From Aeromicrobium massiliense JC14 (GTDB lineage: Bacteria > Actinomycetota > Actinomycetes > Propionibacteriales > Nocardioidaceae): a stretch of 64,000 bases of DNA. The stretch spans positions 612,386 to 676,385 of the forward strand of contig NZ_HE978638.1 of the NCBI RefSeq assembly GCF_000312105.1, given 5' to 3'. The position numbers and the translations under genes were made by a program. Below, piece after piece: positions 4,722 through 30,067 of this stretch. Position 1 is the stretch's first letter; each line of letters opens with the position of its first letter. Under the pieces are notes generated by a model. It searched no databases, was not told the origin of the DNA, and was given only the letters and a program-made list of their open reading frames with translations.

Positions 4722-4883
4722 ATGAGCGAAGCCCCCGCACCCGACTACGTTCCCGAGCCCGACAAGACCCCGGACCCGGCGGTCGAGCCCGACCCCGGCA
4801 GCACCACCGTGCCCGGTCCACTGACCGAGGAGCCCGAGGACTTCCCCGAGGCCGACCGGCCGCACCGAGAGGAGCAGCGATGA
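4722..4883 (+). CDS. tiny acidic Pro-rich disordered protein (cassette 1, first gene)
   Basis: This 53-residue protein is almost only Pro, Glu, Asp, Ala and Thr, with no Cys, no hydrophobic core and no signal peptide, so it should be intrinsically disordered. It contains the motif EPEDFPEADRP. The first gene of the second cassette (29799–29942) has DPESFPDAEPS at a comparable spot, so [ED]PE[DS]FP[ED]A is a shared element. It overlaps the next small gene by 4 bases (ATGA), which argues for real translation and coupling. Function unknown. Confidence 0.6.
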   Translation: MSEAPAPDYVPEPDKTPDPAVEPDPGSTTVPGPLTEEPEDFPEADRPHREEQR

Positions 4884-5017
4884 CCACCATCCCGATGCAC
4901 CCGGACGGACCCGTCCCGGGCTCGCCCACGGGCCCGCAGGAGCCGACGCCGGTCGGCCCGGAGGACCCGATCTCCACGCCCGAGCCGCCGGCCGCCGAGC
5001 CGGACGAGACGCGCTAG
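4880..5017 (+). CDS. tiny Pro-rich disordered protein (cassette 1, second gene)
   Basis: This is a 45-residue protein whose ATG overlaps the stop of the preceding small gene (ATGA) and whose own TAG shares a base with the GTG of the reductase gene that follows. The N-terminus reads TIPMHPDGPVPGS; the second gene of the other cassette has EPIHPDDGSV, so an I-x(0,1)-HPD element is shared. The rest is Pro, Gly, Glu and Ser. An AGGAGCAG ribosome site lies just upstream. Function unknown. Confidence 0.55.
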   Translation: MTTIPMHPDGPVPGSPTGPQEPTPVGPEDPISTPEPPAAEPDETR

Positions 5018-6114
5018 TGGCGCCGGAGAGTCCTGACGCACCATCGACGACGCCGGGCCGGGCCCTGGTCGTCGGAGCGACCGGGATCGTCGGACAGGCC
5101 GTCGCGCGCCGGCTCGTCGCCGAGGGCTGGGAGACCTACGGCCTCTCGCGCAGCGGGTCGAGCCCGCACCCGGACGTGATCCCGGTCAAGGCGGACCTCG
5201 GCGACCCGGCGGGACTCGTCACCGCGCTCGCCGACGTGGCCCCGCAGCTCGTGACGATCACGGCCTGGACCCGGATGGAGACCGAGGCCGAGAACATCCG
5301 GGTCAACGGGGGAGCGGTGCGCGACCTGCTGGCGGCCCTGTCGCCGGCGAGGTCGGTCGAGCACGTCGCCCTCATGACCGGGCTCAAGCACTACCTCGGT
5401 CCGTTCGAGGCCTACGGCCAAGGGACGATGCCCGACACCCCGTTCCGCGAGGACGAGGAACGACTGCCGTACCCGAACTTCTACTACGCGCAGGAGGACG
5501 AGCTCTTCGCCGCGGCCGAGCGCGACGGGTTCACCTGGAGCGTCCACCGCTCGCACACGGTGCTCGGGTTCGCCACGGGCAACGCGATGAACATGGTCGC
5601 CACGCTGTGCGCCTACGCCTCGATCTGCCGCGAGCTGGACCGGCCGTTCGTCTTCCCCGGCCCCGAGCGGCAGTGGAGCTCGTTGACGGACGTGACCGAC
5701 GCGGACCTGCTGGCCGAGCAGATGATCTGGGCGGCACGGACGCCGGCGGGTCGGAACGAGGCTTTCAACACGGTCGACGGCGACGTCTTCCGGTGGCGCT
5801 GGCTGTGGCCGCAGATCGCGGCGTGGTTCGGCCTGGAGTGGGAGGGCTACGCCGACGCGCCTCGCCCGCTCGAGCAGTCGATGGCCGGCATGGAGTCGGC
5901 GTGGCGAGACCTGGCGGCCAAGCACGACCTGGTCGAGCCTGACCTGTCCCGCGTGGCGTCCTGGTGGCACACCGACGCCGATCTCGGCCGTGAGATCGAG
6001 GTCGTCACCGACATGAACAAGAGTCGCGCCGCGGGCTTCACGGCCACCCGTGACAGCCGGGCGGCGTTCCTGCAGTACGCCCAGCAGTACCGCGACGCCC
6101 GCATCATCCCCTGA
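5017..6114 (+). CDS. SDR-type NAD(P)H-dependent reductase of the PRISE (progesterone 5-beta-reductase/iridoid synthase-like) family
   Basis: The 365-residue protein begins with a Rossmann nucleotide loop, VVGATGIVGQAV. It carries the two family marks of PRISE reductases: TGLKHYLGPFEAYG with the active-site Lys, and PNFYYAQEDELF in place of the usual YxxxK. Plant members reduce enones such as progesterone or 8-oxogeranial; bacterial members have little-known substrates. The FPGPERQW and VDGDVFRWRWLWPQIA segments are also typical of the family. The GTG start overlaps the previous stop by one base, so it is probably co-transcribed with the two tiny proteins. Substrate cannot be inferred. Confidence 0.85.
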   Translation: MAPESPDAPSTTPGRALVVGATGIVGQAVARRLVAEGWETYGLSRSGSSPHPDVIPVKADLGDPAGLVTALADVAPQLVTITAWTRMETEAENIRVNGGAVRDLLAALSPARSVEHVALMTGLKHYLGPFEAYGQGTMPDTPFREDEERLPYPNFYYAQEDELFAAAERDGFTWSVHRSHTVLGFATGNAMNMVATLCAYASICRELDRPFVFPGPERQWSSLTDVTDADLLAEQMIWAARTPAGRNEAFNTVDGDVFRWRWLWPQIAAWFGLEWEGYADAPRPLEQSMAGMESAWRDLAAKHDLVEPDLSRVASWWHTDADLGREIEVVTDMNKSRAAGFTATRDSRAAFLQYAQQYRDARIIP

Positions 6115-6129
6115 GTGCGCCCCATGGAG

Positions 6130-6158
6130 GAAGCCCCGGAGCGATGCTCCGGGGCTTC
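6130..6158. terminator. bidirectional hairpin terminator, copy A
   Basis: A perfect 13-base-pair stem (GAAGCCCCGGAGC and its complement) closes a 3-base loop, followed by TTCG. It lies between the convergent reductase and arylsulfatase genes and could end both transcripts. The same 29 bases occur exactly at 8750–8778. Confidence 0.75.
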
Positions 6159-6174
6159 TTCGCTCTGGCGGAAC

Positions 6175-6209
6175 GGCCCAGCCGTGGACCCTCGACCGAG
6201 CGGACGACG
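6175..6209. repeat. imperfect direct repeat of the tRNA-Gly 3' end and its flank (left copy)
   Basis: These 35 bases match 8974–9007 with two substitutions and one extra base. The shared core GCCGTGGACCCTC is followed by CCGAGCGGACGACG. In the right copy the last ten bases are the 3' end of the tRNA-Gly gene. Together with the duplicated hairpin this frames the arylsulfatase gene. Confidence 0.6.
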
Positions 6210-10157: not shown

Positions 10158-10163
10158 ACCGAG

Positions 10164-10191
10164 AAACCCCCTGGAGAGATCCAGGGGGTTT
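10164..10191 (+). terminator. Rho-independent terminator of tRNA-Val(CAC)
   Basis: A 12-bp stem (AAACCCCCTGGA/TCCAGGGGGTTT) with a GAGA loop is followed by TTCGTCTTTC, directly after the tRNA. Confidence 0.8.
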
Positions 10192-10242
10192 TCGTCTTTC
10201 TCTCGGGCACCTTTCCTGTCGCACACCGCCGTCGGGCCGGCG

Positions 10243-10656
10243 TCAGCGCACGAGGGCGGTCACTCTCACACCGTCGCTGAGGTCGGTCGTCCAGGAGCCG
10301 CACACCCGCCCCACGATGGTCATGTCGCGGGCCAGCCCGACCTCGCTGAGCACCTCGCCGCTCGCGCCGACGACGCGCTGGCCGTGGTCGTGGACGGTCA
10401 CCTCGACCGGGCCGGCGCCGTACGACCACGCGACCTCGAGCTCACCCTCGGGGGTCGGGGCTCCGTGCTGGATCGCGTTGCCGGCCAGCTCGGCGAGCAC
10501 GATCCGCGCGTCCGCGACGGTGTCCGGGGACAGGCGAGAGGCTTCCAGCATCGCGCCGATCATCCGCTGGGCCCGGGCGACGCTCGCCCACTCGAAGGGC
10601 AGGACCAACGACACGCTCACCAGGTCAGGCTCGGACGCGCAGCCGCGGTCGGTCAT
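10243..10656 (-). CDS. RsbW-type ATP-binding protein (putative anti-sigma factor kinase)
   Basis: The 137-residue HATPase_c_2 protein has the N box ARIVLAELAGNAIQHG with Glu56 and Asn60, and a degenerate G1 region VTVHDHGQRV. Proteins of this size are either serine-kinase anti-sigma factors or stand-alone regulatory ATPases that partner with STAS proteins. Two STAS proteins lie immediately upstream on its 5' side. The ATG is 7 bases after a TAGATT -10 element, so the mRNA may be leaderless. No sigma factor gene is adjacent, so the target is not known. Confidence 0.8.
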   Translation of the reverse strand: MTDRGCASEPDLVSVSLVLPFEWASVARAQRMIGAMLEASRLSPDTVADARIVLAELAGNAIQHGAPTPEGELEVAWSYGAGPVEVTVHDHGQRVVGASGEVLSEVGLARDMTIVGRVCGSWTTDLSDGVRVTALVR

Positions 10657-10662
10657 CGCCTC

Positions 10663-10668
10663 AATCTA
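10663..10668 (-). promoter_or_regulatory. -10 element of a leaderless transcript
   Basis: On the minus strand TAGATT ends 7 bases before the ATG of the RsbW-type gene. It is only 22 bases beyond the stop of the STAS gene, so the ATPase gene may have its own promoter. Confidence 0.4.
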
Positions 10669-10690
10669 GAACGGCCGAGGCGTCCGCGCC

Positions 10691-11041
10691 TCAGGGACGG
10701 GGACGGTCGAGAGTGCCGTCCGACGCGGGGTGCGGGTAGACGTCGAAGGTCTCGTGGAGCCCGCAGATCTCGAACAGTCGCAGGATCCGGGGCTGGTCGC
10801 ACGTCACCCAGAGCTGGCGACCACCGCGCACGAGCCTCAGCCGCGCGTCGACCAGGGTGCTGAGGCCGGCGGCGTCCAGGAAGTCCAGACGGCGCAGGTC
10901 GACGATCACGTCGTGGGTGTCGTCACGGACGAGCTCGTGGAGGAAGCTCCGGAACGGCTCGGCCGAGGCGACGTCCAGGTCGCCCCCGACCGTGACCATC
11001 GCGAACGGGCCGGAGGTGCGCAGTGCCATCGCGAAGGCCAT
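10691..11041 (-). CDS. STAS domain protein (anti-anti-sigma factor-like)
   Basis: This 116-residue single STAS domain has MVTVGGDLDVASAEPFRSFL at the N-terminal half, then DVIVDLRRLDFLDAAGLSTL. The position after the conserved Asp, normally a phosphorylated Ser (DSSG in SpoIIAA), is Ala. It is upstream of and co-directional with the RsbW-type ATPase. The reading frame is open further upstream, but the ATG at 11041 has GGAG at a good distance. A close paralogue is divergent at 11355–11714. Without the Ser it may work as a constitutive partner or a decoy; that is inference. Confidence 0.8.
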   Translation of the reverse strand: MAFAMALRTSGPFAMVTVGGDLDVASAEPFRSFLHELVRDDTHDVIVDLRRLDFLDAAGLSTLVDARLRLVRGGRQLWVTCDQPRILRLFEICGLHETFDVYPHPASDGTLDRPRP

Positions 11042-11354
11042 GGCGATCTCCGTCGGCCCGTCGGTCGCGGGAGCCGTTACGGCGAGGTCCGGGCCGTAGA
11101 CGCCGGCGCCAGCGAGCGATGCCGTGATCTGTGCGACCAGCCTGCGACGCTCTGGCGACGGGCGCAACCCCCTCCGGCCGCGGATGTCGCGGGGACGGCC
11201 ACCGGCGTGCGAGACCGACCCGGTCGGCCGGTTGCCGAAGCCTCGGCGCAGGCGCAGCATGGAGACGTCGATCCGGCGTCGCGGTTGGTGCCTGGTCCGC
11301 ACGGCCCAGACCCCGCCGTGCCGGCACCGACCCGTCCGGACGGGGGGAGGGGCC
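11042..11354. other. 313-base intergenic region between two divergent STAS genes
   Basis: No convincing gene, RNA or strong hairpin was seen. Both strands stay open for a while because of the high GC, but no start with a ribosome site precedes the chosen ones. It should contain the promoters of both STAS genes; I could not single out -35/-10 pairs with confidence. Confidence 0.5.
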
Positions 11355-11714
11355 ATGGCGCTGGCTGTCGCCGTCCGGGCATCCGGGCACCACTCGGTCG
11401 TCACGGTGGCCGGGGAGCTCGACTGCGCCACGGCCCCGTGCCTGCGCGGCTTCCTCTTCGGCGAGATCGAGGAGTCCCAGCGCGACCTGGTCGTCGACCT
11501 GCGCCGGCTCGACTTCCTCGACGCCGCGGGGCTCAACGTCCTCGTGAACGCGCGTCTGAGCCTGGCGTTGTCCGGCCGCGAGCTGACCGTCCTGTGCCAT
11601 GATCCCAAGATCCTGCGGCTGTTCGTGATCACCGGGCTGCACGAGACGCTGAACGTCAACGCACTGAGCGAGTCCGGCGCACCTTCCCGCGGCCTCCGGG
11701 ACCGGGAGGAGTAG
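11355..11714 (+). CDS. STAS domain protein, paralogue of the divergent neighbour
   Basis: This 119-residue STAS domain has SVVTVAGELDCATAPCLRGF and DLVVDLRRLDFLDAAGLNVL. The two STAS proteins share the block VDLRRLDFLDAAGL and a similar tail (KILRLFVITGLHETLNV against RILRLFEICGLHETFDV), so they arose by duplication. As in the neighbour, the phospho-acceptor Ser is Ala. The ATG follows GGAGGGGCC. The last 20 residues are charged and not part of the domain. Confidence 0.8.
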   Translation: MALAVAVRASGHHSVVTVAGELDCATAPCLRGFLFGEIEESQRDLVVDLRRLDFLDAAGLNVLVNARLSLALSGRELTVLCHDPKILRLFVITGLHETLNVNALSESGAPSRGLRDREE

Positions 11715-11735
11715 CCGCTCCCGAGGCGCCGCAGG

Positions 11736-13013
11736 TCACCCCACCATCCGGGGCCCGGACAGCCGGTTCTCGAGCCGGTGCGCCTCCCGCTTGATCGGCT
11801 GCGCGACGTACTGGCCCAGGATCACGCCGGCCGCGAGCGCCAGTGCCGTGACGAGCGCCGTCGCCAGCATGAGCACGCCGTCCTGCCCCTCGGCGAGCAT
11901 CGAGAGCCCTCGGTAGATGTCGAGCCCGGGCAGCAGCGGCACCAGGGCGGGGACCACGACGACCAGCGGCGGGACCCGGAACCGGCTGGCGGCGACGTGG
12001 CACACCGAGCCGATCGTGACGGCGGCGAGCGTCGCGGCCCACGGACGGGCGACCGCCGAGCTGTCGACGGCCAGGAACACGACCTGGCCCAGGCCTCCGA
12101 TGAGCGACGCGCCGACCACCGCCCGCACCGGCGCGTACGACGCGAACGCGAACGCGGCCGCGGCCACCGCGGCCCCCACCACCGCGACGCCCGCCTCGGC
12201 CAGGCCGCGTGCGCCGGGTGTGAAGCCGGTCAGCCCGGCACCGAGGAGGTCCCCGAGGGTGAGCCCCGCGCTGACGCCGGCGATGATGCCGGCACTGTTG
12301 ATGAAGGCGTCGATCAGGCGCGCGCTCGCGGTCAGCGGGAAGCCGGTCAGCGCGTCCTGCGTGGCGCCGAGGATGCCCACGCCGGCGAGGAGCATCACGA
12401 TGCCGGTCGTGATGACGTGCGACGGGTTCACCTCGAGGTCGAACGCCGCGGTGACGAGGGCGACGAGCGTCGCGACGAAGCCTCCGGCCGCGTGCTGGTA
12501 GAACGACGGGATGCGGTGCTCGGGCAGCAGCAGCTGGGTGCCGTCGATCGCGCACGCGGCCACGAACGCCATCAGGCAGACGACCGGACCCGCGCCCAGC
12601 GTCAGGGCGACCCCGACGCCCATGACGCCCCAGCCCAGCGTGACCGCCCAGCGGCGGCGCGCGTGGCCGGTCGACACCGTCCGCGCGACCCGGTCACGGG
12701 CCTCGGCGCGGTCGATCCGCCCGGCGACCAGGTCGCTGACGGTGGCCTCGACCTCGATCAGGTCGGCGTAGTCGACGGGCCGGCGGTTGATGCGACGCAC
12801 CTGGATGGTGAGCGGCTCGTCCCGGCTCGGCTGCTGGCGCAGCGAGAGGTCGACGAAGGTGATGTCGGCCGAGACGTTGCGCACGCCGCACGCGCGCGCG
12901 ACCGCCAGCATCGTGGCGGTCACGTCCGCAGCACCGGCGCCGGACGACAGCAGGACCTCGCCGATCCGTAGGGCGAGGTCCAGGCTGGCGTAGACCTCCC
13001 GGGACTCCGTCAT
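11736..13013 (-). CDS. ThrE-family threonine/serine exporter
   Basis: The 425-residue protein has an N-terminal soluble ThrE/DUF1212 domain (ALRIGEVLLSSGAGAADVTA and ITFVDLSLRQ), then about ten transmembrane helices, with the C-terminal DUF3815-type half fused in one chain as in Corynebacterium ThrE. The family exports threonine and serine driven by the proton gradient. The ATG overlaps the stop of the dipeptidase gene by 4 bases, so it is the last gene of a coupled operon. An exporter fits as an outlet for amino acids released by the peptidases upstream. Confidence 0.85.
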   Translation of the reverse strand: MTESREVYASLDLALRIGEVLLSSGAGAADVTATMLAVARACGVRNVSADITFVDLSLRQQPSRDEPLTIQVRRINRRPVDYADLIEVEATVSDLVAGRIDRAEARDRVARTVSTGHARRRWAVTLGWGVMGVGVALTLGAGPVVCLMAFVAACAIDGTQLLLPEHRIPSFYQHAAGGFVATLVALVTAAFDLEVNPSHVITTGIVMLLAGVGILGATQDALTGFPLTASARLIDAFINSAGIIAGVSAGLTLGDLLGAGLTGFTPGARGLAEAGVAVVGAAVAAAAFAFASYAPVRAVVGASLIGGLGQVVFLAVDSSAVARPWAATLAAVTIGSVCHVAASRFRVPPLVVVVPALVPLLPGLDIYRGLSMLAEGQDGVLMLATALVTALALAAGVILGQYVAQPIKREAHRLENRLSGPRMVG

Positions 13014-14353
13014 GCGTAGTGCTGGAGGAACAGCGCCTCGGCGAGGGCCATCGAGGCGATCTCGGACGGATCGACGCTCTCGTTCGGCGCGTGGATGAGC
13101 GCGAGCGGCTCCTCGACGCCCATGAGCACGATCTCGGCGTCCGGGTACAGCTCGGCGAGCACGTTGCACAGCGGGATCGAGCCACCCTGCCCCAAGCGGC
13201 TCATGGCGACGCCGTACGCCTCCTGCATCGCCGTGGCCATGGCGCGGTAGGCCGGCCCGTCGGTGGCGGCGGCGAAGGGCGAGCCCGTGGCCTCGGTCTC
13301 GACCATGCAGCGGACGCCCCAGGGCACGGCGGCCTCCAGGTGAGCCACCAGCGCGTCACGAGCGGCGTCGGGGGAGACGCCGGGCGGGATGCGCAGGTTC
13401 AGCCGGGCCGCGGCGCGTGGCACGACGGCGGCGGCCGACCCCACGACGGGCGGGCAGTCGATGCCCAGGATCGTCACGGCCGGGCGGGCCCAGAGCATGT
13501 CCGAGACGCTGCCGTCCCCGAGCAGCTCGACGCCGTCGAGGACGCCGGCGTCCGAGCGGAACTGCTCGGGCGGGTACGGCGCTCCGGACCACGTACGCGT
13601 GCTGTCGAGCCCGGTGACGACGGTGTTGCCGCGCGCGTCGCGGAGCGTGGCGAGGGCGGCGACGAGGGCGGCGAGCGCGTCCGGCGCCGCCCCGCCGAAC
13701 ATCCCGGAGTGGAGCTCGGACGTGCTGGACTCGGTCGTCACGACGACGTTGACCATGCCGCGCAGGCTGACCGTGACGGCCGGATGGCCGACGGCCGCGT
13801 TGCCGGTGTCGCACACCAGGATCGCGTCTGCGCGCAGCTGGTCGGCGTGCTCGGTCACGTACGCCTCCAGGCCGCCGGTGCCCTGCTCCTCCGACCCCTC
13901 GACGACGAGCTTGAGGTTCACCGGGAGGTCGTCCCCGAGGGCTCGTAGGGCGGCCAGGTGCATGACGATGTTGCCCTTGCAGTCGGCGCTGCCGCGGCCG
14001 TACCAGCGTCCTTCCGTCGCGGTGAGCTCGAACGGGGGCGTCCGCCACGCCTGGTCGTCCAGCGGCGGCTGCACGTCGTAGTGGGCGTAGAGCAGGACGG
14101 TGGGGGCGTCGGCCCGTCCGCACGAGCGGGAGCCGACGACGGCCATGCTGCCGTCCGGCGTCGGCTCCAGGCGCGCGTCAGCGAACCCAACGCCGGTGAA
14201 CCGGTCCACGACCCACTGGGCGGCGCGTTCGCACTCCTCGGCCGGGAACTGGCGCGGGTCGGCCACGGACCGCAGGGCGACGAGGTCGCTCAGCTCGTCC
14301 CAGGCGGTGGGCATGAGGTCGGCGATGCTGCGGCGCAGGTCCATGTCAGTCAC
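13010..14353 (-). CDS. M20 family dipeptidase
   Basis: The 447-residue zinc peptidase has metal ligands in YAHYDVQPP (His91, Asp93), RGSADCKGN (Asp124), EGSEEQG (Glu155/156), CDTG and IHAPNESV. The dimerisation (lid) domain fills the middle. Members cleave dipeptides, and some act on gamma-glutamyl or carnosine-like substrates. The start shown is GTG, overlapping the upstream stop by 8 bases; an ATG at 14344 would give a protein three residues shorter. The downstream ThrE gene overlaps by 4 bases. Confidence 0.9.
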   Translation of the reverse strand: MTDMDLRRSIADLMPTAWDELSDLVALRSVADPRQFPAEECERAAQWVVDRFTGVGFADARLEPTPDGSMAVVGSRSCGRADAPTVLLYAHYDVQPPLDDQAWRTPPFELTATEGRWYGRGSADCKGNIVMHLAALRALGDDLPVNLKLVVEGSEEQGTGGLEAYVTEHADQLRADAILVCDTGNAAVGHPAVTVSLRGMVNVVVTTESSTSELHSGMFGGAAPDALAALVAALATLRDARGNTVVTGLDSTRTWSGAPYPPEQFRSDAGVLDGVELLGDGSVSDMLWARPAVTILGIDCPPVVGSAAAVVPRAAARLNLRIPPGVSPDAARDALVAHLEAAVPWGVRCMVETEATGSPFAAATDGPAYRAMATAMQEAYGVAMSRLGQGGSIPLCNVLAELYPDAEIVLMGVEEPLALIHAPNESVDPSEIASMALAEALFLQHYA

Positions 14354-16246: not shown

Positions 16247-16372
16247 GGACGTCTCCGCGACTGCGTTCGGATGCTCATGACCTTCTCCGTCCAGACGTCG
16301 TGCCTGAGTCAGTGGGTCGAGTGTCGGCCCGATGCCCTCGGGGCGGCCTCACCCGCGACGGGTGACGTCGCG

Positions 16373-19874: not shown

Positions 19875-19932
19875 GGTGTCCTCCTCCAGGTCGCGGGCCC
19901 TCCTGCGGAGCGTGCCGCGTGCGCGGCGGTGC

Positions 19933-19959
19933 CCACCTCCCCCCGCGGGGATGAGGTGG
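19933..19959. promoter_or_regulatory. inverted repeat in a divergent promoter region
   Basis: CCACCTC (19933–19939) and GAGGTGG (19953–19959) form an inverted repeat; CGCGCGG/CCGCGCG segments outside it can extend the pairing. It lies midway between the amidotransferase and GCS2 starts and could be a common operator. Confidence 0.3.
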
Positions 19960-20031
19960 ACCGCGCGCCGGCCTGTCCACGCTGGGCGGCAGGGCCGCGC
20001 CTCCTCGCCGTGCGGCCGGTCGAGGAGGGCC

Positions 20032-21129
20032 ATGCTGACCATCGGGGTGGAGGAGGAGCTCCTGGTGCTCGACCCGCAGGGTCGCGTCCTGCCGGTGGCG
20101 CCGCAGGTCGTGCGTCTGGCCGACGACCCCCGGGTCAAGACCGAGCTGATGACGTACCAGGTCGAGACCGTCTCCAGCGTGTGCACCGACCTGGACCAGC
20201 TCGGCCGCGAGCTCGCCGGCCTGCGTCGGACGGTCGCGGACGCCGCCGCCCGGGCCGACGCGATGGTGGTGGCGTCGGGCACCCCGCCGGTCGGCGAGCC
20301 CGGGCTGGAGATGGTCACGGACTCGCGCCGCTACCGGGGGCTCGCCGGGATGTTCCCCGACGCCGTGGCCACGGGCGGGACGTGCGCGTGCCAGGTGCAC
20401 GTCGGCGTCGAGGACCGTGACCTGGCGGTCGACGTGCTGGCGCGGCTGCGCCCGTGGCTGCCCGCCCTGCTCGCGCTCGGCACGAACTCGCCGCTGGGCG
20501 CCGGGCGCGACACCGGCTGGAGCAGCTCGCGCTACGCGCGCCAGCTGCGCTGGCCGTCGTTCGTCCCGCCGAGCACGTGGCCGTCCGCCGCCGCCTACGA
20601 CGCGGCCTTGGACGACATGATCCGGCGCGGGACGGCCTTCGACCTGCGCAGCGTCTACCTGCTCGCCCGGCTGTCGCCGCGGTACCCGACCATCGAGATC
20701 CGGGTGGCGGACACCGCGCTCGAGGTGGCGGACGCCGTCCTGCTGGCGGGGGTGTGCCGGGCCCTCGTCGCGACGCTGGTCGCCGACGCGCGTCAGGGTG
20801 TGCCCGTCGTCCCGGTCGGCGACCAGGCCCTCCGCGCCGACCTGCTGGACGTCGCGGTGCACGGGGACGCCCCGACGCTCGACGCCGGCTCGGACACGCT
20901 CCACGTCGGACGCCTGCGGCACCGGATCGGCACGGAGCTGACGCTCAGCGGCGACGCCGGCGTCGTCCTGGCCGGGCTCGACCGTCTCGCGGCCGAGGGC
21001 ACCGGTGCCCAGCGCCAGCGACGCCTGCTGGACGCCACCGTCGGGTCCGAGGGCCTCGTGGCGGCGTTGGCAGCCGTGACCAGTCCCGAGGCGACCGGGC
21101 CGGGCACCGTCGCCGGCGCCACGGCCTGA
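20032..21129 (+). CDS. carboxylate-amine ligase of the GCS2 (YbdK) family
   Basis: The 365-residue protein starts with LTIGVEEELLVLD, the nucleotide/metal motif of glutamate–cysteine ligase type 2, and has TGGTCACQVHVGVED, LALGTNSPL and PTIEIRVADT as further active-site blocks. The family joins glutamate (or another carboxylate) to an amine with ATP. In actinobacteria one member, EgtA, makes gamma-glutamylcysteine for ergothioneine; others have unknown acceptors. The chosen ATG has GAGGAGG upstream. It is divergent from the EgtC-like hydrolase operon. Confidence 0.85.
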   Translation: MLTIGVEEELLVLDPQGRVLPVAPQVVRLADDPRVKTELMTYQVETVSSVCTDLDQLGRELAGLRRTVADAAARADAMVVASGTPPVGEPGLEMVTDSRRYRGLAGMFPDAVATGGTCACQVHVGVEDRDLAVDVLARLRPWLPALLALGTNSPLGAGRDTGWSSSRYARQLRWPSFVPPSTWPSAAAYDAALDDMIRRGTAFDLRSVYLLARLSPRYPTIEIRVADTALEVADAVLLAGVCRALVATLVADARQGVPVVPVGDQALRADLLDVAVHGDAPTLDAGSDTLHVGRLRHRIGTELTLSGDAGVVLAGLDRLAAEGTGAQRQRRLLDATVGSEGLVAALAAVTSPEATGPGTVAGATA

Positions 21130-21145
21130 CCGGGACGTGCGCGAC

Positions 21146-21171
21146 CCGGGCGTGCTCGACGGCACGCCCGG
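21146..21171. terminator. hairpin between convergent genes
   Basis: A perfect 10-bp stem (CCGGGCGTGC/GCACGCCCGG) with a 6-base loop lies between the ends of the GCS2 gene and the DUF7144 gene and can serve both strands. Confidence 0.65.
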
Positions 21172-21195
21172 CCCGGGGCGGGGGAGCGGCGACGG

Positions 21196-21651
21196 CTACG
21201 CCTCGCGCAGCTCGTCCCCGTGCACGACGACGGCCCAGATCACCAGGATGTCGACGATGATCATCGTCAGGCTCCAGAACGGGTAGGCCGCGAGGAAGGC
21301 GAAGTTGACCACGGCGCTCAGCAGCGCCACGAGGACGGCGATCACCCGGGCGACCATGCGCCCGGTGAGCAGGCCGACGCCGGCGGCGGCGACGACGATG
21401 CCACCGATCAGGTGGATCCAGCCCCAGGCGGTGTAGTCCACGGTCACGACCAGGCCGTCGCTGTTGACCAGGAAGTAGTCGTCGCGGAACAGGGCGACCA
21501 GCCCGGAGATGGCGTGCCAGGTGCCGACGAGCACCATCATGAAGGTCGCGAAGGCGATCCACCCGGCCCAGCCGGAGACGGTGGTCGGCGTCGTGCTCCC
21601 GTAGTGCCCGCGGGCGGTGGTGTCGTCGGGACGTGCGTCGGTACGAGACAT
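21196..21651 (-). CDS. DUF7144-type four-helix membrane protein
   Basis: The 151-residue protein has a polar 25-residue N-terminus and four transmembrane helices. Its core YTAWGWIHLIGGIVVAAAGV, then SAVVNFAFLAAYPFWSLTMI, is shared with the divergent neighbour at 21876–22301, so the two are paralogues. The function is unknown; the size and layout recall small membrane stress proteins. The ATG has a GAAAGGGCCC stretch upstream. Confidence 0.75.
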   Translation of the reverse strand: MSRTDARPDDTTARGHYGSTTPTTVSGWAGWIAFATFMMVLVGTWHAISGLVALFRDDYFLVNSDGLVVTVDYTAWGWIHLIGGIVVAAAGVGLLTGRMVARVIAVLVALLSAVVNFAFLAAYPFWSLTMIIVDILVIWAVVVHGDELREA

Positions 21652-21875
21652 GATGGGCCCTTTCTGGTGAGTCCGCGGCCAGTCTCGGCCGGGCCGGCGC
21701 GGAGCCGCCTCACCCTGGCGGGACGATTGCCGACCCGCCGTGGCCGCCTCTCGTCCGCGCTGCGTGATCCGCTCGCGGTGCCGTGACGCTTGCATGGGGC
21801 GTGGGGGAGCCCGGCCGGGCTCCCCGGCCCGCGAGCGAGCGCCGGACGGGCGCGCGCAGTGCCCAGGAGCCGACC

Positions 21876-22301
21876 ATGAGCCAGGACGGGACGTCGAGCA
21901 CGACGGACTGGATCGCCTACGGGTTCATCAAGTTCGCCGCGACGATGATGGTGATGCTCGGGGTGTTCCACGGGTTCATGGGCACGGTCGCGCTGGTGCG
22001 CGGCACCCTGTACGTCGAGACGCCCGAGTACGTCCTCGACCTCGACACCACGGCGTGGGGCTGGATCCACCTGATCGCCGGGGTCGTCGTCCTGGCCGGC
22101 GCGTTCGCGGTGCTCTCCGGACGGATGTGGGGCCGCGTCGTCGGCGTGGTCGTCGCCTTCGCCAGCGCCCTGCTCAACTTCGCCTTCATCCCGTACTACC
22201 CGGTGTGGGCGGTGCTCGTCATCGTGCTGGACGTGGGCGTGATCTGGGCGCTGACCATGCACGGAGACCTGTTCCCGACCCGCGACCCGCGCGAGCCGTG
22301 A
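21876..22301 (+). CDS. DUF7144-type four-helix membrane protein, paralogue
   Basis: The 141-residue protein has four transmembrane helices. TTAWGWIHLIAGVVVLAGAF and SALLNFAFIPYYPVWAVLVI align with the opposite-strand neighbour. CAGGAGCCGACC precedes the ATG. The frame is open 93 bases further upstream but that part is Arg/Pro-rich and unlike the family. It may be co-transcribed with the YihY-like gene 30 bases downstream. Confidence 0.75.
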   Translation: MSQDGTSSTTDWIAYGFIKFAATMMVMLGVFHGFMGTVALVRGTLYVETPEYVLDLDTTAWGWIHLIAGVVVLAGAFAVLSGRMWGRVVGVVVAFASALLNFAFIPYYPVWAVLVIVLDVGVIWALTMHGDLFPTRDPREP

Positions 22302-22331
22302 GCGGGCGGCGGGTCGAGCCCGGGTCGTCCG

Positions 22332-23243
22332 ATGAGCCGGCCCGGTGACCCGAGTCCCGGTGACCCTCGTCCCGGGCGGGCCGCCGCGAGCCGGATCACG
22401 CCGCAGGACCTGCCCGGATGGCTGCGCGGCCCGGTCGAGTGGGTGCTCGCCCGGTGGGTCGGACGCATCGTGCTCCGGACCGTCGCAGGGTGCGTGCGGG
22501 TGGAGGTCTTCGACCGCGCGATGACCGTGGCCGCGCAGTTCTTCACCTCGATGCTGCCTCTGCTCATCGTCACCGCGACCGTCGTCGAGCGGGACGACGA
22601 CGGGACGGTCTCCGACCTCGTCGGCGCGACGGGGCCGGCGAGCGACCTCATCGACCAGGCGGTCCACCCCTCGAACGAGGCCGCGTTCAGCGTGGTCGGC
22701 GTGCTGCTCGTCCTGGTCTCGGCCACGAGCCTGTCCCGGGCGCTGACCCGCGGGTTCGCCGTCGTGTGGGAGGTCAGCCGGCCCCAGGTCGGCCTGCGCT
22801 CCGCCTGGCGCTGGCTCGCCGTGGTCGTGGCGTTCGTCCTGGCGGTCGTCGTCGTGCAGAACCTCAGCCAGCACGCCCGGGTCCTGCCGCCCGCGAACGT
22901 CTGGCCGGCGGCGCTGTCGTTCGGCACCGACCTGGTCGTCGCCACGTTCGTGCCGTGGATCCTGCTGCTCGACCGGGTCGCCGTGCGTCTGCTCCTGCCC
23001 GGGGCGACGGTCTTCGCCCTGGTCATGGCGGTGCTCCGGCCGGCCGCCGACGTCTGGCTGCCGATGGCGCTCGAGCTCAGCTCGGACCGGTACGGACCCA
23101 TCGGCGTGGCGTTCACGTACCTGGCCTGGCTGTACGTGGTCGCCTTCGTCTTCATCGCCGCGTCGGTGCTCGGCCAGGTCGTCGCGACCGACGAGGGGCG
23201 GGTCGGCGCGTGGGTGCGGGGCAGGGCGTCGATGCCCGGCTGA
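22332..23243 (+). CDS. YihY/YhjD family inner-membrane protein (second copy)
   Basis: The 303-residue protein has six hydrophobic segments and the family pattern FDRAMTVAAQFFTSMLPLLI near the first helix and PIGVAFTYLAWLYVVAFVFI at the end. It is a distant relative of the protein at 2174–3106 and closer to the YhjD branch, which has been tied to lipid/LPS transport in enterobacteria by genetics only. The start is an ATG preceded by CGTCCG without a clear Shine-Dalgarno; the start is less certain. Confidence 0.75.
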   Translation: MSRPGDPSPGDPRPGRAAASRITPQDLPGWLRGPVEWVLARWVGRIVLRTVAGCVRVEVFDRAMTVAAQFFTSMLPLLIVTATVVERDDDGTVSDLVGATGPASDLIDQAVHPSNEAAFSVVGVLLVLVSATSLSRALTRGFAVVWEVSRPQVGLRSAWRWLAVVVAFVLAVVVVQNLSQHARVLPPANVWPAALSFGTDLVVATFVPWILLLDRVAVRLLLPGATVFALVMAVLRPAADVWLPMALELSSDRYGPIGVAFTYLAWLYVVAFVFIAASVLGQVVATDEGRVGAWVRGRASMPG

Positions 23244-23340
23244 GCCGGCAGCGGCGACGGCGAGACTCACCCGGAAGGCATGATGCTCCGCCCGCCGGCC
23301 GTCAGCAGGATGGTGCTCTCCCGACAGGACGGAGCTCGAC

Positions 23341-24639
23341 ATGTCCGACGCGCCGCTCGACCACCCGACCCCCACGACGTCCGCACCTGCCACCGGGGGA
23401 GGTTCGACCGGCCGCTCGGTGGCGGTGGTGCTCTGCCTGGTGCTCGCCGCCGTCCTCACCACGCCCGCCGGGATCGCGTACTGGGGCAACCGGACGCTCG
23501 ACGACGGTCAGCGGTACATCGAGACCGTCGGCCCGTTGTCGGACTCGCCCGAGGTGCAGGCGGCTCTCACGACCGCGGTCACCGACGCCATCACCCGGCA
23601 GGTCGACGTGGAGCAGGTCCTGCAGGACGCCTTCGCTCCGGTGACCGCCGAGCGTCCGCGGCTCGAGCTGCTGGTGGGACCGATCGCCGGCGCGATCAAC
23701 GCCGCCATCGAGCGGCAGGTCCGGGTCTTCTTCGCCTCCGACGTCTTCGCCGACGTCTGGGTGCGGGTCAACACCCGGGCCCAGCAGACGCTGCACCGCG
23801 TCCTCGAGGGCGAGGGAGGCGGTGCGGTCTCGCTCGAGGGCGACGACGTGGTGCTCGACCTGTCCGAGGTGGTCGACGAGATCGTCCAGCGCCTGTCCGA
23901 CCGGGGGATGACCTTCCTGGAGGACCTGCCCGTGCCGGAGGTCGACCGCCAGGTGGTGCTGATGGAGGCGCCGCGCGTGAAGCAGGCACGGACGATCTAC
24001 GCGTTCGCCAGCCCGGTCGCGCGCTGGATGCTGCCGATCGTCGCGCTGCTGTACCTGGGGGCCTTCGTGCTCGCCCGCCGCAGGGGCCGGACGACCGTAG
24101 CCATCGGTGCGCTGGTCGTCGCGAACGCCCTCCTCCTGGCGCTGACCCTCGCAGTGGGCCGGCAGCTGTTCCAGGACGAGCTCGCCGGCACGACCTTCGG
24201 CCCGGCCAGCAAGGCGTTCTACGGGACGATGACCGCCTACCTCGACCGCGCGCAGGGCGTGATGCTGTGGCTGGGGCTGACGTTGGTCGTCGCCGGATGG
24301 TTCGCCGGCGCGAACCGGTACGGGTCGGCCACGCGGCGCGCCGCCGCGTCGGGGCTCGAGCGAGCCGGTGCGGCTCTGTCCCAGGGGCAGCTGACCGGGC
24401 CCGGGCGGTGGGTCGCCGCGAACGTCGGCTGGCTCCGCGTGGTCGCCGTCGGCCTGGCCGTGGTGGTCCTGCTGTGGGGCAACGACGTGTCGCCCGGCCG
24501 CTGGTGGTGGTCGCTCGCCCTGGCGGTCGTCCTGCTGGCCCTGCTCCAGGCGCTGGTCGGTGCCGGTCGCGCGACCGGACCCCACCCGCCGCGCGGGGAC
24601 GGCCGGACGGCGCCCGTGGCGGCGTCGCCGGCGGGCTGA
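23341..24639 (+). CDS. multi-pass membrane protein with a large extracytoplasmic helical domain, unknown
   Basis: The 432-residue protein has one transmembrane helix at about 26–47, an outside domain of about 170 residues (YIETVGPLSDSPEVQAALTT and following amphipathic helices), then four or five more transmembrane helices and a polar tail. The pattern of a short N-terminal anchor followed by a predicted helical outer domain is seen in many actinobacterial integral membrane proteins of unknown role. ACAGGACGGAGC precedes the ATG. It may follow the YihY gene in one transcript (97-base gap). Confidence 0.65.
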   Translation: MSDAPLDHPTPTTSAPATGGGSTGRSVAVVLCLVLAAVLTTPAGIAYWGNRTLDDGQRYIETVGPLSDSPEVQAALTTAVTDAITRQVDVEQVLQDAFAPVTAERPRLELLVGPIAGAINAAIERQVRVFFASDVFADVWVRVNTRAQQTLHRVLEGEGGGAVSLEGDDVVLDLSEVVDEIVQRLSDRGMTFLEDLPVPEVDRQVVLMEAPRVKQARTIYAFASPVARWMLPIVALLYLGAFVLARRRGRTTVAIGALVVANALLLALTLAVGRQLFQDELAGTTFGPASKAFYGTMTAYLDRAQGVMLWLGLTLVVAGWFAGANRYGSATRRAAASGLERAGAALSQGQLTGPGRWVAANVGWLRVVAVGLAVVVLLWGNDVSPGRWWWSLALAVVLLALLQALVGAGRATGPHPPRGDGRTAPVAASPAG

Positions 24640-24781
24640 CCGGCCTCATCCGGCGTGGACGAGACCGCCGTGCCGCCGAGCGGGCCGGGCCCGAAGTCAT
24701 CTCTCGGTGACGACGAGGAGGCGCCACGGACGGGGCAGACTGCCTTGACCGCGGTCGCCGAGCAGGGAGGGGTACGGGCCG

Positions 24782-25075
24782 ATGGACGAGAGCCCAGCAG
24801 GACCCTCCGGGCGCCCCGGCCCGGGAGACCGAGGGGCCGACCAGCTCTTCGAGGTACGCATCACCGGACTGGTCGCGGACGACGTCCTCGGCCGTCTCGA
24901 CGACGTGGAGGTCACGACACGCGAGCTGCGCACGACGTTGCGGGCCCGGTTGCGCGACCAGGCCGAGCTGCACGGCCTGCTCGCCCGGCTGCGCACCTAC
25001 GGGCTCGAGGTCGTCGAGGTCCGGCGACTGGCGTCCGGCCGCGACGACGGCCCCCGGGTGGAGGAGCCCTCATGA
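24782..25075 (+). CDS. small alpha/beta protein, unknown (pair member 1)
   Basis: The 97-residue protein has a Pro/Gly-rich N-tail and then a compact domain: LFEVRITG, a helix, RTTLRARLRDQAELHGLLAR, and RTYGLEVVEVRRL. The beta–alpha–beta order and the closing GLEVVEV strand look like a ferredoxin/ACT-type fold. The next gene overlaps it by 4 bases and ends in the same way (GLRIEEV), so the two are probably distant paralogues. AGGGGTACGGGCC precedes the ATG. The pair lies just upstream of the LuxR-type regulator. Confidence 0.6.
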   Translation: MDESPAGPSGRPGPGDRGADQLFEVRITGLVADDVLGRLDDVEVTTRELRTTLRARLRDQAELHGLLARLRTYGLEVVEVRRLASGRDDGPRVEEPS

Positions 25076-25320
25076 CCGCGGACGGCGCCGCTGCCGACTA
25101 CGAGCTCACCGTCCGCGGCCCCCTGGGGCCCGTGCTGCGACGGGCACTGAGTCCCGGCCGCGTCGTGGAGTCCCGCACGTGCACGACCCTGCTGGCGGTG
25201 TCCGCCCGGGGGCTGGAGTCGGTGGTCGCCATGGCGGACGCGTCCGGCCTGCGCATCGAGGAGGTGTGCGTCGCTGCGTCCGGTCCCGTGCTCGACCCGG
25301 GCCACGACGACACGGGGTAG
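25072..25320 (+). CDS. small alpha/beta protein, unknown (pair member 2)
   Basis: The 82-residue protein reads YELTVRGPLGPVLRRALSP, then SRTCTTLLAVSARGLESVVA and GLRIEEVCVA. The ATG overlaps the stop of the preceding gene (ATGA) and GGAGGAG lies upstream, so translation is well supported. The first strand (YELTVRG) and last strand match the layout of its neighbour, suggesting a small duplicated domain that may form a heterodimer. Function unknown; a role with the adjacent MalT-like regulator is a guess from position. Confidence 0.6.
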   Translation: MTADGAAADYELTVRGPLGPVLRRALSPGRVVESRTCTTLLAVSARGLESVVAMADASGLRIEEVCVAASGPVLDPGHDDTG

Positions 25321-25406
25321 CACCGCGGCGCCCTGGCCGCTCACACGAATCGGGTGAGGTCGCCTCCGAGCGCCCGCCGCTACGTTCGCGTCCAGGGAGG
25401 TGGGCC

Positions 25407-28067
25407 ATGGCACCGCAGTCCGAAGGATCAGGGCCCAGCAGCCGGGAGCACCCGCAGCGCATCGCGTCCGACGTCGGCTGGCCCGGGGTGCCGGACCGGC
25501 CCGCGCACTTCCTGCCCCGGCCCCGGCTCCTCGCGCTGCTGGACGCCGGGCCGACGTGCCCGCTGGTGCTGCTCAGCGCCCCGGCCGGCACGGGGAAGAC
25601 CACGCTGGCCGCCGACTGGGCCAGGTCGCGCGCACCCGGTCGTCTGGAGTGGATCACGCTCGACCCGGGCGACGCGTTCTGGCCGGCGTTCGGGTCCGCC
25701 CTGCGACGGCTCGGCGTCGACGTGGCGCCCGGTGCTCTCGTGGCCGCGGACCGTCCGCTCGACCCGGCCGCCCGTCGCGGCGTCGCCTGCGCGGTCGCCG
25801 CCGAGAGCGAGCGGCTGACGGTCGTCGTGGACGGGTACGACATGACCTCCCCGGAGGTGGCCGCCGACCTCGACTTCCTGCTGCGGCACACCGGCCACCG
25901 GCTGCGGGTCGTCCTGCTGACGCGCGCCGACCCCGTGCTTCCGCTGTACCGGTACCGGCTCGAGGAGACGATGGTGGAGGTGCGGATGGCCGACCTCGCC
26001 TTCACCGACGGCGAGGCCGACGCGCTGATGCGGCTGCTCGGCGTGCCGCTGCACCAGGAGTCGGTCCATGCGCTCGACGAGTACGTGGGGGGCTGGGTCA
26101 CGGGCCTGCGGTTCGCGGCCAAGCGGCTCGCCGGCCGTCCCGACCCCGACCTCGAGGTCGAGCAGGTCGTGAGCCGCAGCGAGAACGTCGCCGAGTACCT
26201 CGTGGGGGAGGTGCTCGCCTCCCACTCGGCGGAGGTGCGCGAGCTGCTGCTGACGCTGAGCATCCCCGACACCATCCGCCCGGGCCTCGACGAGGCGCTC
26301 GCCGGCCGGTGCGCCGGCCGGCGTCTCGCCGCCCTCGCCACCGTCAACGTGCTCATCGAGCACGTCCCCGGCCAGGCCGGGTGCTACCGGCTCCATCCGT
26401 TGTTCCGCGACATGCTGCGCGCCGAGCTCGCGTACGAGTCGCCGGAACGGTTGCTTGCGCTGAGGTGCCGGGCCGCCGCGTGGTTCGCCGGGCAGGGCAT
26501 GCTCGGGGCGGCGATCCACCACTACGCGGCGGCGGGGGCGTGGCAGGAGGCGGCGACGGCCGTCGTCGACCACGCCGCCCTGGCCCAGCTCGTCGCCGCG
26601 CCGGACGCAGCGGCCTGGGTGCGGACGATGCGGGAGATGCCGGCCGACCTCGACGACCCGGCGGCCTCGGTCGTCCGCGCCGCCCTGGCGCTCGTCGACC
26701 GTGACCACGCCGGGTTCGACGCCGCGCTGGCGCGAGCGGACGGCGGTGGGACCGGGACGGCGACCGCTCACGCCGTCGCGTCCGCCGTGAGCGTCCTGCG
26801 GGCCGTGCGAGCCCGCTCCGAGCGCGACCCCGAGCAGGCGCAGGCGTGCGCCGACGAGGCGGCGGAGGCGCTCGCTGCCGGCTCCGCGCCACCCCCGGAC
26901 CTGGCGGCGCTGGTGCATGCGACGCGCGGCGTCGCCGCGGTGCGCCGCGGACGTCTGGACGAGGCCCGGCGCCACTTCGAGGACGGCGCGGCCGCCGGTC
27001 CCTGTGGCGGCGCGCCGGTCGCCGAGTGCGTCGGGTTCCTCGCGGTGCTCGCGTGCTGCGAAGGGGACCTGGTGCGGGCCGAGCGGCACGCCCGGCGTGC
27101 GGTCGAGCTCGCCACGGCGACGGGCCTGCCGCCGGGGGAGCGCCCCGCCCCGGCGGAGGTCGCCCTGGCCTGGGTCGCCCTCGAGCGGTTCGACTTGCGT
27201 GCGGCCGGCGACCACCTGCGGGTGGCGTCGCAGTCGCGTGCCGTGCTCGAGGAGCCCGTCACCGGCACCCTGCTGGTCCTGCTCAGGGCACGGCTGACGG
27301 TCGCGCAGGGAGACCGCACGGGTGCGCGCGCGCGTCTGACCGAGTCGTGCGTGCCGCAGGGGGGTCCGTCCGACTGGGCCACGGAACAGATCCGGGTCGA
27401 GGCGGCCCAGCTGGACGTAGCACGGAACGAGCCCGAGGCGGCACTGGCGGCGATCCAGGCGGCCGGCGGGCCGAGCGCGAGCGCGGCGGCGACGCTGGTC
27501 GCCGCCCAGGCCCGGCTCGCGATGCGGGACGACGCCGCCGCTCGGGACGTCCTCGCGGTGGCCCGCGACGACCACGCCCCGCTGCCGGTGCGCGTCACGG
27601 CCTGGCTCGTCGAGTGCGTCCGGCTGCAGCGCCGGGGCCGCGCGCAGGAGGCGCACGGCGCCCTGGTGGCCGCGCTGGAGCTCGCCCACGAGCCCCGGGT
27701 GCGGCGGCCCTTCCACGACGCGGCGTCGGTCGTCCGCCAGCTGCTGGTGCGCGACGAGCGTCTGGCGAACCGGCACGCGTGGCTCGTCGAGCGGACCCCC
27801 GGGGGGACGCCACCGGCGGCCCGACCGCACCGGACCGCGCCGGTCCCGGAGCAGCACCCCGCTCCGACCGAGCGGCTGACGGAGAAGGAGCTGGAGGTGC
27901 TCGGCCACCTCGCGGACCTGCTGAGCACCGAGGAGATCGCGGCGGCGATGTACATCTCGGTCAACACCGTGCGCACCCACGTGCGCAACATCCTGCGCAA
28001 GCTCGGGGTGACCCGCCGCAACGCCGCGGTGCGCGCGGCGCGCGAGCACCAGCTCCTGCCGACCTGA
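25407..28067 (+). CDS. MalT-like LuxR family transcriptional regulator (STAND ATPase)
   Basis: This 886-residue regulator has a P-loop NTPase domain with Walker A APAGTGKTT (58–66) and a Walker-B-like LTVVVDGYDM, an arm region with HPLFRDMLRAEL, a long helical TPR-like sensor region (about 340–790), and a C-terminal LuxR helix-turn-helix (about 824–886: LTEKELEVLGHLADLLSTEE … ISVNTVRTHVRNIL). Proteins of this type bind an inducer and ATP, then oligomerise and activate promoters. The ligand is unknown. The ATG has GGGAGGTGGGCC upstream. Targets may include the small pair upstream or the stress genes downstream. Confidence 0.9.
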   Translation: MAPQSEGSGPSSREHPQRIASDVGWPGVPDRPAHFLPRPRLLALLDAGPTCPLVLLSAPAGTGKTTLAADWARSRAPGRLEWITLDPGDAFWPAFGSALRRLGVDVAPGALVAADRPLDPAARRGVACAVAAESERLTVVVDGYDMTSPEVAADLDFLLRHTGHRLRVVLLTRADPVLPLYRYRLEETMVEVRMADLAFTDGEADALMRLLGVPLHQESVHALDEYVGGWVTGLRFAAKRLAGRPDPDLEVEQVVSRSENVAEYLVGEVLASHSAEVRELLLTLSIPDTIRPGLDEALAGRCAGRRLAALATVNVLIEHVPGQAGCYRLHPLFRDMLRAELAYESPERLLALRCRAAAWFAGQGMLGAAIHHYAAAGAWQEAATAVVDHAALAQLVAAPDAAAWVRTMREMPADLDDPAASVVRAALALVDRDHAGFDAALARADGGGTGTATAHAVASAVSVLRAVRARSERDPEQAQACADEAAEALAAGSAPPPDLAALVHATRGVAAVRRGRLDEARRHFEDGAAAGPCGGAPVAECVGFLAVLACCEGDLVRAERHARRAVELATATGLPPGERPAPAEVALAWVALERFDLRAAGDHLRVASQSRAVLEEPVTGTLLVLLRARLTVAQGDRTGARARLTESCVPQGGPSDWATEQIRVEAAQLDVARNEPEAALAAIQAAGGPSASAAATLVAAQARLAMRDDAAARDVLAVARDDHAPLPVRVTAWLVECVRLQRRGRAQEAHGALVAALELAHEPRVRRPFHDAASVVRQLLVRDERLANRHAWLVERTPGGTPPAARPHRTAPVPEQHPAPTERLTEKELEVLGHLADLLSTEEIAAAMYISVNTVRTHVRNILRKLGVTRRNAAVRAAREHQLLPT

Positions 28068-28078
28068 GCCGGACCGGA

Positions 28079-28121
28079 CGCACGAGGGCCCCGGACCATG
28101 ACGGTCCGGGGCCTCGGTGCG
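28079..28121. terminator. bidirectional hairpin terminator
   Basis: An 11-bp perfect stem GGCCCCGGACC/GGTCCGGGGCC (28087–28113) with an ATGAC loop is extended outward by CGCAC/GTGCG. It lies between the convergent LuxR-type and MFS genes. Confidence 0.8.
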
Positions 28122-28131
28122 TGGTCGTCGA

Positions 28132-29607: not shown

Positions 29608-29647
29608 AGTCGTTCCTTCGTGGTGGTCGGGGAGGGGACAAGACTTG

Positions 29648-29676
29648 TGTATCACGCAACTGTTGATGAACCGCAA
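29648..29676 (-). promoter_or_regulatory. promoter of the MFS transporter gene
   Basis: On the minus strand TTGCGG (29671–29676) and GATACA (29648–29653) are separated by 17 bases. The region is notably AT-rich for this window. The predicted leader is about 35 bases. Confidence 0.5.
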
Positions 29677-29798
29677 CCATGAGCGCCGTGATGCCCGGCA
29701 CACCCCGCCCGCCGGCGCGCGATTGAACGGGGCGGCCTCGGGTACGAGCCGCTCGTGACGCGCGGGACGTCCGTGCGGATCGACCCACAGGAGGCGAC

Positions 29799-29942
29799 AT
29801 GACCATCGCACCCGAGGACCCGGAGAGCTTCCCCGACGCCGAGCCGTCGATCGAGCCCTCCTCGCCGGACATCGACCCGCCCGGCGCCGACCCGTCCTTC
29901 CCCCCGGGCGCCCTGCCCGAGACCGATCCCGACAGGAGCTGA
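29799..29942 (+). CDS. tiny acidic Pro-rich disordered protein (cassette 2, first gene)
   Basis: The 47-residue protein is made mainly of Pro, Asp, Glu, Ser and Ala, and is predicted disordered. It contains EDPESFPDAEPS, matching EEPEDFPEADRP in the protein at 4722–4883. CAGGAGGCGAC is a strong ribosome site, which supports real expression. Two bases after its stop the second small gene begins. Function unknown. Confidence 0.6.
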   Translation: MTIAPEDPESFPDAEPSIEPSSPDIDPPGADPSFPPGALPETDPDRS

Positions 29943-29944
29943 CC

Positions 29945-30067
29945 GTGACCGAGCCCATCCATCCCGACGACGGATCCGTCACCGACAACGACGAGCAGGA
30001 CTCCGAGCCCAGCGGCACCGCGCCCGACGGCGGAGCACCGAACGACCCGTCCACCACGACGGCCTGA
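29945..30067 (+). CDS. tiny acidic disordered protein (cassette 2, second gene)
   Basis: The 40-residue protein starts at GTG and reads TEPIHPDDGSVTDNDEQDSE near its N-terminus. The I-HPD element recurs in the second gene of cassette 1 (TIPMHPDG). GACAGGAGCTGACC upstream is a good ribosome site. A strong hairpin follows the stop, so the two small genes may form a transcript of their own ahead of the catalase gene. Function unknown. Confidence 0.5.
   Translation: MTEPIHPDDGSVTDNDEQDSEPSGTAPDGGAPNDPSTTTA

Follow-up and report, generated by a model that had tools for sequence, protein, structure and literature searches.

Several described systems invite comparison with two pairs of tiny genes, P1–P2 and P3–P4, that lie in a 64,000-nucleotide stretch of the genome of Aeromicrobium massiliense JC14 (contig NZ_HE978638.1, positions 612,386 to 676,385 of the forward strand; this whole stretch is referred to below as the window). 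CrsL is a 5.7-kDa disordered actinobacterial protein that binds CarD (PMC12709188). In the cited part of that report, CrsL is, like P4, tiny and disordered; it is encoded in an operon with the stress-related gene otsA and acts via its partner. CrsL forms two helices (about residues 17–47) on CarD, with the conserved region at residues 20–45 folding there, whereas the core of P4 is Pro-rich, the two proteins being compared by description only (PMC12709188). By analogy, CrsL shows a precedent for a docking mode of tiny disordered proteins in actinobacteria. The SigF regulon of Mycobacterium smegmatis, an oxidative-stress regulon, has the promoter consensus GTTT-N(14-19)-GGGTA, with boxes 8–11 nucleotides (nt) from some start codons, and the cited passages describe no small acidic DQD[SA]EP family in it (PMC4694148). 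The boxes before the present genes resemble this consensus (GATT-N15-GGGTAC before P3 and GTTG-N15-GGGCAC before P1), and sigma control of the two pairs would be read from these boxes. Finally, hydrophilins and LEA-like protectants (for example Hsp12, PMC6054528) are small, very hydrophilic, and disordered, and they occur in a stress context; unlike them, the P4 family carries a fixed short motif.

We consider it reasonably likely that P1–P4 are real, translated, disordered acidic mini-proteins encoded in two independent stress operons, and that P4 docks on a partner through the motif DQD[SA]EP[ST]xNAP. This reading is built on the conservation of the genes in a sister species, the codon bias of the changes between the two species, the membership of P4 in a wider family, and promoter-like boxes.

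Tiny gene pairs and their conservation in a sister species

Both pairs lie on the forward strand. P1 (4722–4883) encodes an acidic, disordered protein of 53 amino acids with the string EPEDFPEA at residues 37–44, and its stop codon is overlapped over four bases (ATGA) by the start of P2 (4880–5017; 45 amino acids). The GTG start of a PRISE-like reductase gene (5017–6114, +; Pfam PF22917, E 1.1e-17) overlaps the P2 stop codon in turn (TAGTG), giving three overlapping genes in a row. P3 (29799–29942; 47 amino acids, with DPESFPDA at residues 7–14 and an AGGAGG site) is followed after a gap of two bases by P4 (29945–30067; 40 amino acids), a member of the DQD[SA]EP..NAP family, and then by a gene for a large-subunit catalase of the katE type (30132–32360, +; Pfam PF00199, PF06628, and PF18011). 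All four small proteins are rich in Pro, Asp, and Glu, with net charges of −7 to −11 and grand average of hydropathy (GRAVY) values of −0.9 to −1.4, and the triplet HPD occupies residues 7–9 of P2 and 6–8 of P4. AGGAG-type sites precede P2, P3, and P4; none precedes P1, which may be translated without a leader. A sequence-only reading of the window had described the overlap and the gap, the Pro/Asp/Glu-rich composition, strong ribosome sites in all but possibly one gene, and the reductase and catalase downstream, and the coordinates, charge and GRAVY values, and Pfam matches agree with it on each of these points. A composition filter applied to the open reading frames (ORFs) of the window returned P2, P3, P4, and two weaker ORFs, and missed P1 because its frame stays open further upstream. 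No Pfam or NCBIfam match to P1–P4 was found at E 1.

The sister species (genome G058) keeps both pairs in the same order; there, P3 and P4 overlap by four bases and the P1 stop codon lies five codons earlier. The changes between the window and G058 in P1–P4 were distributed over the three codon positions as 4/4/29, with 29 of the 37 at the third position (binomial 2.5e-8, assuming independent changes), and comprised 28 synonymous and 9 nonsynonymous changes, a ratio derived from a single sister species. The constraint was greatest in P1, with 6 synonymous changes and 1 nonsynonymous change, each of the 7 at a third position, and in P2 (11 and 0); P3 showed 8 and 6, with the amino acid changes confined to its second half, and P4 showed 3 and 2. 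Because the gene order is kept and the changes are biased to third positions, P1–P4 are very probably translated, constrained proteins, as had been proposed. That they are spurious ORFs in GC-rich DNA would fit their shortness, their low complexity, and the lack of a Pfam or NCBIfam family, but the third-position bias, the synteny, and the spread of the P4 family across the class make this extremely improbable. The earlier observation of the same order at two loci 25 kb apart thus held for the order, which is kept in G058, and did not hold for the spacing, which is about 8 kb there. The region at 10162–28129 of the window (about 18 kb) has a counterpart of about 1 kb in G058; an HATPase_c_2 (RsbW-like) gene lies inside it at 10243–10656 (−).

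The P4 family and the question of duplication

The core of P4, DEQDSEPSGTAPDGGAPND (residues 16–34; 29990–30046, +), scored 34.1 with a position weight matrix (PWM) that excluded the window and G058 sequences, and no score above 13.5 was obtained in 20,000 shuffles of P4, although the members used had been found by P4-seeded searches and the test is not fully independent. With the same matrix, P1 (p = 0.11), P2 (p = 0.12), and P3 (p = 1.0) scored at background and are not members. Among 98 genomes searched with P4, a nearly identical protein occurred only in the genome of the window and in G058, and two weak matches (G066, E 0.009; G037, E 0.2) were tiny acidic ORFs carrying the same string. 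At E 0.05, a profile made from four sequences gave matches, many of them weak, in 41 of 293 genomes of the taxonomic family. At E 0.001, a profile of eleven cores matched 15 of these 293 genomes and 16 of a set of 296 sampled evenly across the class (the genome of the window, G058, G133, G244, and G278 belong to both sets and are counted in both). The consensus of the core was D-Q-D-[SAT]-E-P-[ST]-x-N-A-P, often extended by x-E-G-R-P-D.

The motif is also found in other arrangements. Three related mini-proteins of 65 amino acids (L282–L284) carry DQDAEP (or DQDAQP) twice, about 36 residues apart. In two proteins of about 230 amino acids, the form [DG]QDSEPTAN[AV]P is located near the N-terminus, and GGGTAC stands 9 nt before the ATG; one of them (L289, 919–1620, −) matches the membrane protein family DUF2231 (PF09990), and the other (L296, 1471–2163, +) has no Pfam match. 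L289 thus resembles P4 in its motif, whereas P4 lacks a membrane part. Synonymous and nonsynonymous changes in ortholog pairs of the family were 6/2, 13.5/14.5, 19/18, and 2/0, and in two more distant pairs 10/26 and 7/11; the alignments showed conservation of the core. The genes beside P4 relatives varied between loci. No second filter-passing ORF adjoined a P4 relative in 36 fetched loci (several of them repeat fetches), in 6 of which the composition filter missed the P4 relative itself and was not exhaustive.

None of the 6 relatives scanned matched NCBIfam, and among the 9 scanned against Pfam, only L243 had a match, below threshold, to DUF4666 (E 0.08). On plasmids, P4 was not found, and a single match to the family at E 9 was not accepted; no family member was found in phages, and no solved structure matched the family profile. 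The literature matches listed contained no description of a DQD[SA]EP family, and the strings DQDAEP and DQDSEP returned no match. The P4 family is apparently an undescribed family of actinobacterial mini-proteins.

Relatives of the other three proteins were scarce. For P1, a protein search covered 6 genomes and a DNA-pattern search for [ED]-x-[ED]-x-F-P-[ED]-A covered 58, giving 24 matches in 17 genomes. The 22 other than the two of the window were located in open frames of 48–624 amino acids, of which only L128 (48 amino acids) was short, and were rejected because they had no acidic, Pro-rich context; a second P1 match in G058 (E 0.004) was rejected because it sits among long overlapping frames. 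The P3 profile matched 11 of the 293 family genomes at E 0.02, its best match beyond the genome of the window and G058 (E 0.0026; open frame of 186) was not accepted, and no convincing relative of P3 was found beyond G058 in this set. The P2 profile matched 18 of the 293 at E 0.02, four of them below 0.001 beyond the genome of the window and G058 (G245, G267, G215, and G140); one of these (L316, from G245) was read as sequence and the others through the composition filter. L316 is a 31-amino-acid ORF near position 1492 that begins MTRTAPNHPDGAGPGSPTGP, scores E 4.2e-5 with the P2 profile, and has HPDGxxPGSPTGP in common with P2. It is possibly a relative of P2, which, if the candidate is real, would have a family of its own.

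These results bear on the proposal of the sequence-only reading that the pairs are two copies, now diverged, of one two-component cassette. Both pairs have the same order, size, and composition, and both head operons with stress-type promoter boxes; the strings on which the proposal drew, [ED]PE[DS]FP[ED]A in P1 and P3 and HPD in P2 and P4, are present, and L316 has the HPD-containing stretch in common with P2. The strings were, however, barely above shuffles: the best ungapped 8-mers, near these motifs, gave p = 0.07 for each pair, and the N-terminally anchored identical triplet HPD in P2 and P4 gave p = 0.03, and the FP motif lies at opposite ends of the two proteins, near the C-terminus in P1 and near the N-terminus in P3. 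In local alignments evaluated with composition-preserving shuffles, P1–P3 was at shuffle level (p = 0.51) and P2–P4 gave p = 0.07, and homology beyond composition was not found. The P4 family also argues against duplication: P4 belongs to a separate family with another motif, for which P2 scored at background, and distant P4 relatives lack HPD in the alignment. Descent from one cassette is unlikely on this evidence; duplication is not supported, and the sequences are better read as two independent operons. The case also illustrates that common composition can make unrelated acidic mini-proteins resemble duplicates.

Putative promoter boxes and the neighboring enzymes

A putative sigma-F/B-type promoter, GGTTG-N15-GGGCAC (4687–4712, +), lies 9 nt before the ATG of P1. 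It is the weaker match, with GGGCAC instead of GGGTAC, and its −35 and −10 boxes and their spacing are the same in G058. A second putative promoter of this type, GATT-N15-GGGTAC (29721–29745, +), lies 53 nt before P3, and its GGGTAC is kept in G058. A third match to the pattern, GGTTC-N15-GGGTAC (32381–32406, +), has its GGGTAC 9 nt upstream of the ATG that follows, that of a 72-amino-acid protein with no Pfam family (32416–32634, +), which is encoded after katE and beside a pyridoxamine-oxidase-like gene. The pattern G[GA]TT-N15/16-GGG[TC]AC thus had 3 matches in 64 kb, compared with a simulated mean of 0.47 and maximum of 2 (60 runs), two of the three being matches by construction, as the pattern was drawn from P1 and P3. 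Elsewhere in the window, an ORF of 97 amino acids with no Pfam family starts a few bases after a GGGTAY (24770–24782).

The same box is frequent in the P4 family. Among 25 listed member starts, which were picked by us and include close orthologs or entries from one genome (L271/L285 and L282–L284), 16 had GGGTAC 8–10 nt upstream of the chosen ATG and 4 more had it 26–33 nt upstream, which gives 20 with the box within 60 nt; the background in the member loci was 54 in 149,426 positions, these matches included. P4 itself has no GGGTAC 8–10 nt before its ATG; it is second in its operon, and the GGGTAC precedes P3. We treated the box near the ATG as typical of the family and not as defining it. 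The stress or desiccation role raised in the sequence-only reading thereby gains a link to stress, through a sigma-F/B-type box before P3–P4–katE and a weaker one before P1–P2–reductase, both of which are putative promoters.

At the catalase loci of relatives, GGGTAY was found upstream of katE in 9 of the 12 same-genus loci besides the window (L136–L147). It lay 34–45 nt before the katE start in 8 of these loci and 83 nt from the start in L142, where the start was probably placed too far downstream; a perfect GTTT was present in 6 of the loci. L141, L146, L147, and L148 (from another family) had no GGGTAY within 350 nt of the chosen katE start. In the window, there is no GGGTAY between P4 and katE, and the box stands before P3. 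Because most of the same-genus relatives have the box upstream of katE and the window has it before P3, the simplest reading of the sequences is that P3 and P4 lie between the stress promoter and the catalase gene in the lineage of the window.

A 13-bp hairpin (30081–30110, +), with a 15-bp hairpin folding in G058, is located between P4 and katE and is possibly a terminator or processing site. Together with the stop/start overlaps from P1 through P2 to the reductase and the proline-rich nature of the peptides, it would suit a scheme in which P1–P2 and P3–P4 serve as leader ORFs: their translation would tune the enzyme encoded downstream, and the peptide products would matter little. We judge this improbable, given that the amino acid sequences are conserved, P2 without a single nonsynonymous change, and that the genes beside P4 relatives are varied.

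With one and the same filter, tiny acidic ORFs turned up in 4 of the 13 catalase loci from relatives (65,685 bases), L144 and L145 being counted separately although their ORF is the same; among the other loci (873,485 bases), 7 of 214 had one. None of the four (L137, L143, L144, and L145) carries the P4 core. In L137 (1284–1418, from G011), an acidic ORF of 44 amino acids (43 from the ATG) is located co-directionally upstream of katE and is followed by GTTT-N16-GGGTAC for katE; as a candidate member of the P4 family, it was rejected by the PWM. L143 (1256–1396, −, from G010) is a Pro/Glu-rich ORF of 46 amino acids downstream of katE, preceded by a GAGGAG site and by GGGTAC. L144 (1173–1361, −) and L145 (3847–4056, +), from G006 and G017, encode a tiny acidic protein divergently, just upstream of katE, with TPQSPTRPDVA in common and GGGTAC before the ORF. 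No Pfam match was found for L144, L145 (taken two residues short), or L137.

At the reductase loci of relatives, no P1–P2-like ORF was found just upstream of the reductase on the forward strand of 43 loci, in 42 of which the reductase was placed (not in L012). ORFs passing the filter there occurred in L031, L035, L041, and L054, none of them just upstream of the reductase. A general association of P1–P2 with PRISE reductases was rejected because, at the loci of relatives, no ORF ending near the reductase start was P1- or P2-like. When 239 loci were considered on both strands, an acidic ORF of 48 amino acids was seen in L073 (1781–1927), ending 73 nt before the reductase match and carrying neither motif.

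A proposed role in the stress response

In the model that we favor, an active stress sigma factor would probably have both operons, P1–P2–PRISE reductase and P3–P4–katE, transcribed from sigma-F/sigma-B-type promoters, and the mini-proteins would be produced together with the enzymes. The motif DQD[SA]EP[ST]xNAP of P4 would most likely dock on a partner protein that is conserved, and the remainder of the chain would form a variable, disordered tail. P1, P2, and P3 would be disordered proteins specific to this lineage, probably made under stress to act as protectants or as adaptors for the neighboring enzyme. Docking is suggested for P4 because its motif, found both in tandem and on a larger protein, looks more exact than a protectant alone would need.

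Hydrophilins contain more than 6% Gly and have a hydrophilicity above 1. By this rule, P4 (10% Gly, GRAVY −1.28) passes on both counts and is the only one of the four to do so, as P1 and P3 (4% Gly each) fail the glycine rule and P2 has a GRAVY value of −0.98. This bears on a simpler view, which we regard as rather doubtful, that the proteins have no specific partner and act only as bulk hydrophilin- or LEA-like protectants under oxidative stress or drying. The very hydrophilic, acidic composition, the stress-type promoter boxes, the catalase as a neighbor, and the fact that, in some other species, katE has unrelated tiny acidic ORFs nearby all fit such a function, but it would not need the exact DQD-EP--NAP string, which is nevertheless doubled in one protein and joined to a membrane protein in another.

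Several points weigh against the stress-operon and docking model, in addition to the seeding of the motif test, the derivation of the promoter pattern, the choice of member starts, and the single sister species mentioned above. On the loci compared, the P1–P2–reductase operon is lineage-specific, because P1–P2 are not found beside the reductase elsewhere and the GGGTAY box is irregular there, occurring within 350 nt upstream of the estimated reductase start in only 9 of the 42 other loci (3 of 9 in the same genus). Five of the 25 family starts (L281, L286, L291, L293, and L295) have no GGGTAY within 60 nt; two further members stand outside the 25, namely L294, whose start is present with no GGGTAY within 60 nt, and L297, which was left out as it has no ATG or GTG before the core. 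A good −35 element (G[GAT]TT) was present in only 4 of the 12 family promoters tested. A sigma factor whose best NCBIfam match is SigB/F/G is encoded in the genome of the window, in favor of stress control, but it scored 224.7 bits, below the cut-off of 234.35, and that NCBIfam model also matched 10 of 14 control genomes, exceeding the cut-off in 1. Finally, read-through from P3 could be blocked by the hairpin that precedes katE.

Tiny disordered proteins are easily overlooked by annotation, and the exact motif and promoter box make the P4 family findable by sequence. More tentatively, and as a possibility that we put forward with low confidence, DQD[SA]EP[ST]xNAP may serve the actinobacterial general-stress response as a portable docking motif that recruits its carriers to one conserved partner. 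If so, these carriers would be stand-alone, often leaderless mini-proteins, sometimes with two motifs, together with a stress-type DUF2231 membrane protein.

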